From Deltaproteobacteria bacterium RBG_13_61_14 (GTDB taxonomy: Bacteria; RBG-13-61-14): DNA of 6,626 bases. Location of the stretch: assembly GCA_001797815.1 (NCBI GenBank), contig MGQK01000031.1, forward strand, positions 23,291-29,916, written 5' to 3'. Positions 201 through 6,626 of the stretch are shown one piece after another (position 1 is the first letter of the stretch; each line of letters begins with the position of its first letter). The translations under genes were made by a program, and so were the position numbers. The notes under the pieces were generated by a model that saw only the letters and a list, made by a program, of their open reading frames with translations, did not search any database and was not told where the DNA came from.

Positions 201-217
201 CCCTGAAAAAAAGGGTT
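186..217 (-). terminator. Terminator-like hairpin at the left junction of the mobile element
   Basis: On the minus strand, AACCCT (212-217) pairs with AGGGTT (199-204) around a 7-nt loop, and the stem is followed by GTTTTTTATTT (198 down to 188). This has the form of a short intrinsic terminator. One arm is partly made of the element's own end (GGTT) and the other is host flank, so the structure appears to have been created by the insertion. It would stop transcription leaving the element towards pyrF. The stem has only 6 bp, so its strength is uncertain. Confidence 0.4.
206..213. repeat. Left 8-bp target-site duplication of the mobile element
   Basis: AAAAAAAG directly abuts the first base of the left terminal inverted repeat and is repeated exactly at 501-508, directly after the right one. 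Identical 8-bp direct repeats on both sides are the footprint of a transposition event. The sequence is simple (seven A's then G), so a chance match is easier than for a mixed 8-mer, but its exact alignment to both ends argues against coincidence. Confidence 0.75.
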
Positions 218-238
218 CTTCACGTTTCTGTGTGGATT
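214..238 (+). repeat. Left terminal inverted repeat
   Basis: This is the outer arm of the mobile element. It is complementary to 476-500 at 22 of 25 positions, with the three mismatches clustered in the middle (225, 228, 229). Perfect blocks of 11 bp at the outer end and 9 bp at the inner end fit the usual two-part ends of transposons, with a cleavage end and a transposase-binding part. Confidence 0.8.
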
Positions 239-252
239 GGTGGTCTTCTGCT

Positions 253-280
253 CCCCCGGGGAGATGCCTCAGCCCGGGGG
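253..280 (+). repeat. Perfect GC hairpin inside the element
   Basis: CCCCCGGG (253-260) and CCCGGGGG (273-280) form a perfect 8-bp stem with a 12-nt loop. No T-tract follows on either side, so it is not a terminator. It is one of several internal dyads of the element and probably reflects the folding seen in miniature transposons. Confidence 0.6.
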
Positions 281-319
281 CGTTTCTGGGGGGAGGCGGC
301 ATCCGAGGCAAACTAGGCT

Positions 320-428
320 GGGATTTTCGAGGCATACCTCCGGTGGCCCATCGGCTCCCGGCCGGAAACCAACGCGATGGCTCCGGATCAGCGCCCTGGG
401 ACACCCGAGCCATGCCTGAAAAAATCCC
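320..428. repeat. Internal imperfect inverted repeat of the element
   Basis: GGGATTTTCGAGGCAT (320-335) is nearly complementary to the segment 412-428, which reads ATGCCTG, five further A's, then TCCC. Between them, CCATCG (348-353) pairs with CGATGG (375-380). The whole inner part of the element could therefore fold as one long branched hairpin in either strand. No known RNA family signature is recognisable in it. Confidence 0.5.
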
Positions 429-475
429 TGCCCAACCAGAAAGGGGAAAACGGTCGAGCCTGCGGCCAGGCGAGA

Positions 476-500
476 AATCCACACGAAAGCGTGAAGAACC
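476..500 (-). repeat. Right terminal inverted repeat
   Basis: This is the outer arm of the mobile element, ending GTGAAGAACC at base 500, the complement of the left end. It also contains a small dyad of its own, CACG-AAAG-CGTG (482-493), which is imperfect in the left copy. Confidence 0.8.
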
Positions 501-508
501 AAAAAAAG
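501..508. repeat. Right 8-bp target-site duplication
   Basis: AAAAAAAG directly follows the right end of the element and is identical to 206-213. A third AAAAAAAG, followed by CG as at 501-510, opens the terminator stem at 531. The A-tract is thus a local host motif as well, which is the main caveat. Confidence 0.75.
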
Positions 509-6573: not shown

Positions 6574-6626
6574 GAGCCTCACGCAAAAACCCTAAGAAAC
6601 TATCTCAAAACCGGCGGGTTTGAAGC
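6574..6626 (+). other. Right-edge tail; possible beginning of a NuoF-like reading frame
   Basis: The 53 bases after the PIG-L stop hold no recognisable terminator or start codon. Read in the same frame as the PIG-L gene, they translate to a peptide containing TLRNYLKTGGFEA. This resembles the N-terminal TLxxYLxxGGYE region of NuoF/Nqo1-type flavoprotein subunits. With no ATG, GTG or TTG in this frame, it cannot be called a gene from this window alone. Confidence 0.25.

Follow-up and report, generated by a model that had tools for sequence, protein, structure and literature searches.

ISL3-family insertion sequences (ISCg1, ISPpu12a and the IS204/IS1001/IS1096/IS1165 group) are longer than 1 kb and carry imperfect terminal repeats of about 24-25 bp, starting with GG(T/C)TC(T/A)TC and containing a GTGG block near position 20, flanked by an 8-bp duplication of an A+T-rich target. 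In ISCg1 the ends are imperfect repeats of 24 bp and the 8-bp target is A+T-rich at its centre (PMC8715038); ISPpu12a combines 24/21 ends with a duplication of 8 bp (PMC4133298). Bacterial MITEs, such as the Correia elements of Neisseria, are short intergenic sequences possessing terminal inverted repeats, a flanking duplication and a foldable interior, but no transposase gene. TIMEs (Tn3-derived miniature elements) are about 260-290 bp long, usually occur in a single copy, produce foldable transcripts and use the ends of their autonomous family, which are Tn3-type 38-bp ends with a 5-6-bp duplication (PMC4133298). A few literature searches, limited to open papers, returned no direct description of ISL3-type MITEs.

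In this work, we analyzed a stretch of 6,626 nucleotides, hereafter the window (G000:C31:23291-29916), from the draft genome of Deltaproteobacteria bacterium RBG_13_61_14 (132 contigs). The segment at window positions 206-508 is very probably a non-autonomous ISL3-type transposable element (MITE) located in the intergenic region between pyrF and groES. It consists of the following features:

206..213, no strand: target-site duplication, left copy AAAAAAAG, an exact match to 501-508
214..238, plus strand: left terminal inverted repeat GGTTCTTCACGTTTCTGTGTGGATT, an ISL3-type end (repeat search; 24.9 bits in a matrix derived from other genomes' ISL3 ends)
239..312, no strand: interior in which about 250-290 forms a strong G+C-rich hairpin; no coding or known RNA family (Rfam, folding)
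313..352, plus strand: left copy of the inner motif, CTGGGATTTTCGAGGCATACCTCCGGTGGCCC, in inverse orientation to the right copy (aligned with further miniature elements)
387..430, minus strand: inner motif, right copy, the reverse complement of which aligns with motifs of further miniature elements in this genome
476..500, minus strand: right terminal inverted repeat, GGTTCTTCACGCTTTCGTGTGGATT on the minus strand, an ISL3-type end (repeat search; 24.9 bits)
501..508, no strand: target-site duplication, right copy AAAAAAAG, an exact match to 206-213

The element shares with ISL3 insertion sequences the type and length of the ends and the 8-bp duplication of an A+T-rich target, but is only 287 bp long and has no transposase gene. 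All of the above characteristics of Correia elements are present as well, whereas the sole full copy, the ISL3-type ends and the 8-bp duplication set it apart from them. In its size, single copy, foldability and use of the ends of an autonomous family it resembles TIMEs, from which it differs in the type of the ends and the length of the duplication.

The flanking genes are divergent housekeeping genes: pyrF, encoding orotidine 5'-phosphate decarboxylase of the OMPdecase family, is on the minus strand, and groES (Cpn10) is on the plus strand; both neighbours named in the initial annotation were thereby verified. A second groES-groEL locus is found in the same genome (G000:C129:10555-10836, L135), and its groES is 64% identical to that of the window. 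Between the element and the window's groES, a perfect inverted repeat, CAAAAAAAGCGGC-aatc-GCCGCTTTTTTTG, occupies positions 530-559. It is terminator-like on either strand and sits between two divergent genes, where a terminator is not needed; it may mark the end of an unannotated short transcript.

The 287-bp element proper (window 214-500) is bounded by two 25-nt arms, at 214-238 and 476-500, which were detected by a repeat search of the window and are 88% complementary (22/25 positions match after reverse complementation). The identical 8-bp word AAAAAAAG lies directly outside each arm, at 206-213 and 501-508. According to the list of reading frames, transposase coding is absent from the 287 bp, and the frames overlapping it are short and extend beyond its ends. 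Thus, the terminal inverted repeats, the abutting target-site duplication and the transposase-free interior by which MITEs are recognized are all present at 206-508. To estimate chance, the window was scanned exhaustively for GG...CC pairs separated by 80-700 bp and having exact 8-bp flanks, and so were 1000 first-order Markov randomizations of it. The 22/25 pair was recovered in the real window, and the best arm match across the 1000 versions was 16/25; the random versions contained approximately one GG...CC pair with an exact 8-bp flank each, but with poorly matched arms (<=16/25). Since AAAAAAAG is a low-complexity, A-rich word with a third occurrence at 531-538, the duplication by itself counts for less than one of a random 8-mer would, and most of the weight is borne by the arms. 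Direct inspection of the sequence, the repeat search and the 1000-version test therefore agree with the initial annotation, in which 22/25 inverted repeats with identical abutting 8-mers had been described around 287 bp without a transposase.

The assignment to ISL3, previously proposed from the GG ends and the 8-bp duplication, was examined using ISL3 elements with intact transposases from other, unrelated genomes. Of 145 genomes searched for the transposase domain PF01610, 21 gave a match, and paired ends were sought around the transposases found. ISL3 elements with exact 8-bp duplications were identified around these transposases (GAAAAATG, GATTTTGT, TTTTTTTT, TAAAAATT, TTAGTATT, AGTAGTTA, AAAAAATA, TGTTGAGG). 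The reference ISL3 duplications are 8 bp long and mostly A+T-rich (GAAAAATG, GATTTTGT, TAAAAATT, ACAAAAAA and others), and AAAAAAAG agrees with them. A weight matrix was built from 15 ISL3 ends, none of them from the window's genome and mostly from elements that encode a PF01610 transposase and are flanked by an 8-bp duplication. This matrix ranks positions 214 on the plus strand and 500 on the minus strand first and second in the window, with 24.9 bits each, the next window position scoring 11.7. The best of 112,702 positions in other DNA reaches 21.9 bits, below both window ends, and corresponds to one of the solo end look-alikes (G000:C36:5760). As the matrix was built without the window's ends, and yet both score at the top, these ends are of the ISL3 type, and the earlier proposal gains support from an independent matrix of ISL3 ends from unrelated genomes. 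In the closest example, the left end GGTTCTTCGCCAATCAGCGTGGAGA is preceded by ACAAAAAA at one locus (L141), and a right end is followed by ACAAAAAA at another (L162); judging from a contig break, the two loci are presumably one insertion. Its transposase of 406 aa contains ISL3 DDE, helix-turn-helix and zinc-ribbon domains.

An autonomous source of the element was not located. No match to the ISL3 transposase domain (PF01610) was obtained in the draft assembly of the host genome, which may reflect a real loss or an assembly collapse. The 25-bp end pattern occurs, among 386 genomes, in the window itself and in one chance match within a coding sequence. The suggestion that an ISL3-type transposase with matching 25-bp ends might be found was borne out as far as the ISL3 ends of other genomes match, whereas an autonomous element with these exact ends was not found in the 386 genomes. 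Solo ISL3-like ends (GGTTCATCGCG.....GTGTGGAT and similar) were observed at three positions in the host genome: C36:5760 (L127), C79:34232 (L129) and C118:10494 (L126). These were rejected as copies of the element, as the paired-end search found no partner end and duplication, and are possibly relics.

The full segment is single-copy in its own genome according to similarity searches, by which very diverged copies could be missed. Further copies with different 8-bp flanks, anticipated in the initial annotation, did not appear, and just 30-35-bp inner pieces occur elsewhere; the element thus lacks the multiple copies that are typical, although not strictly defining, of MITEs. DNA searches of 40 other genomes, including the order relatives, detected no homologue of the full segment; nothing in plasmid and phage collections matches the segment, and the exact inner motif is absent from viral contigs. 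The 30-35-bp inner motif, present as two inverted copies within the element, was also found on contigs C124, C84, C68 and C89 of the same genome and at G002:C155 in an order relative, the left copy (313..352) being 88% identical to the latter over 33 bp. These other motif copies sit within or beside miniature elements whose ends, GGCTCCTC..., are related to those of the window element but distinct from them, so that the interior is akin to that of miniature elements having ISL3-like ends. One sibling element, C68:41485-41666, is complete: it is 182 bp long, has 20/25 ends of the GGCTCCTC type and a perfect 8-bp duplication AATTTTTT, and contains the inner motif. Partial copies of it are located on C84, C89, C124, C107 and C11.

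ISL3 transposase fragments are present in G002, the nearest relative genome with one. Contig C659 of this genome opens with an ISL3 transposase C-terminus running straight into a GGCTCCTC-type end, TTTTGAGGAGCC, and the transposase gene terminates within ...CCCCCAAATTCTTTTGAGGAGCC, an end of the sibling type. Because this transposase abuts a sibling-type end, the sibling elements can be linked to an ISL3 transposase of the same order, while the window element is tied to ISL3 by its own ends. The common inner motif in elements with different ends possibly arose by end exchange or nested insertion.

Other repeats were noted in this genome. Window positions 6579-6626, adjoining a run of Ns in the scaffold, form the end of a second family of miniature elements, CTAAGAAACTATCTCAAAACCGG; twelve ends of this type exist in the genome, and copies of approximately 130-150 bp with inverted ends lie at C63:19579 (L181) and C79:32107 (L182). 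A short dispersed repeat, GGGCTCCCTTCGGGTCTGAGCCTCAGGGTCGAAGACAGG, of about 35-50 bp is found at approximately 30 places in the genome (including L095, L098, L101, L104 and L112-L120) and recurs in both order relatives.

One very improbable explanation of the segment is a structured RNA gene resident at this locus, transcribed rightward toward the 530-559 hairpin, with a closing helix that mimics inverted repeats. The plus strand does fold better than its shuffles (z -5.1), and an inverted repeat with a run of T follows just downstream (530-559), although the plus-strand results of the terminator scan do not include it. However, the minus strand folds equally well (z -5.6), as expected of an inverted-repeat element, so that the highly structured interior described previously holds true for both strands. 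Rfam searches at gathering and relaxed thresholds gave no credible family. DNA searches found no such segment in G001 and G002, the sole order-level relatives; at their groES loci, inspected for an empty insertion site, other genes lie upstream of groES in regions that are not syntenic with the window. The lack of an Rfam match, the symmetric foldability and the non-conserved neighbourhood upstream of groES together make an orthologous RNA gene unlikely, and this explanation leaves the exact 8-bp flanks and the ISL3 ends unaccounted for.

The remaining alternatives also involve mobile DNA. Elements of the IS6 family have GG ends too, and a MITE derived from IS6 or another family that combines GG ends with 8-bp duplications would share these characteristics; we regard such an origin as extremely improbable. 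The 8-bp duplication is indeed documented for the IS6 element ISYps1 (PMC3297565), but the ends of the window element match ISL3 ends over their full 25-bp length and share the GTGG block near position 20, and a transposase search of the genome and its two order relatives revealed no IS6 transposase. An internally deleted, decayed remnant of one full-size autonomous ISL3 insertion, never mobile as a miniature, would agree with the sole full copy and with a genome without a transposase. It is nevertheless unlikely, given that the interior, as judged from its short reading frames running past the ends, retains no transposase trace and that the inner motif is common to other miniature elements. 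Such a remnant is a variant of the ISL3-type assignment, with the same family and ends and a different history, and our estimates for the two overlap.

The best explanation is an ISL3-type miniature element mobilized by a transposase encoded elsewhere. An ISL3-family transposase supplied in trans would bind both GGTTCTTCAC...GTGTGGATT ends; the 287-bp segment would then be excised or copied and joined to an A-rich target via an 8-bp staggered cut, leaving AAAAAAAG on both sides. We infer both this transposition event and where the transposase came from, the assembly itself containing none. The initial description as a miniature transposon with a target duplication was right in kind: the locus holds an ordinary but well-preserved single-copy ISL3-type element. 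Its recent movement, also suggested there, is only weakly favoured, by the intact duplication and the well-matched ends; identical copies and a transposase were not found in the assembly.

More tentatively, the genome might hold mosaic ISL3-type miniature elements, with a common inner motif and differing end families whose ends were maybe swapped to follow different ISL3 transposases, a scenario that we consider rather doubtful. In a lineage that has been poorly sampled, the window element is a clear example of an ISL3-type MITE, and its ends, duplication and sibling elements are all visible. Its value for annotation is modest: segments of this type should not be called RNA genes.
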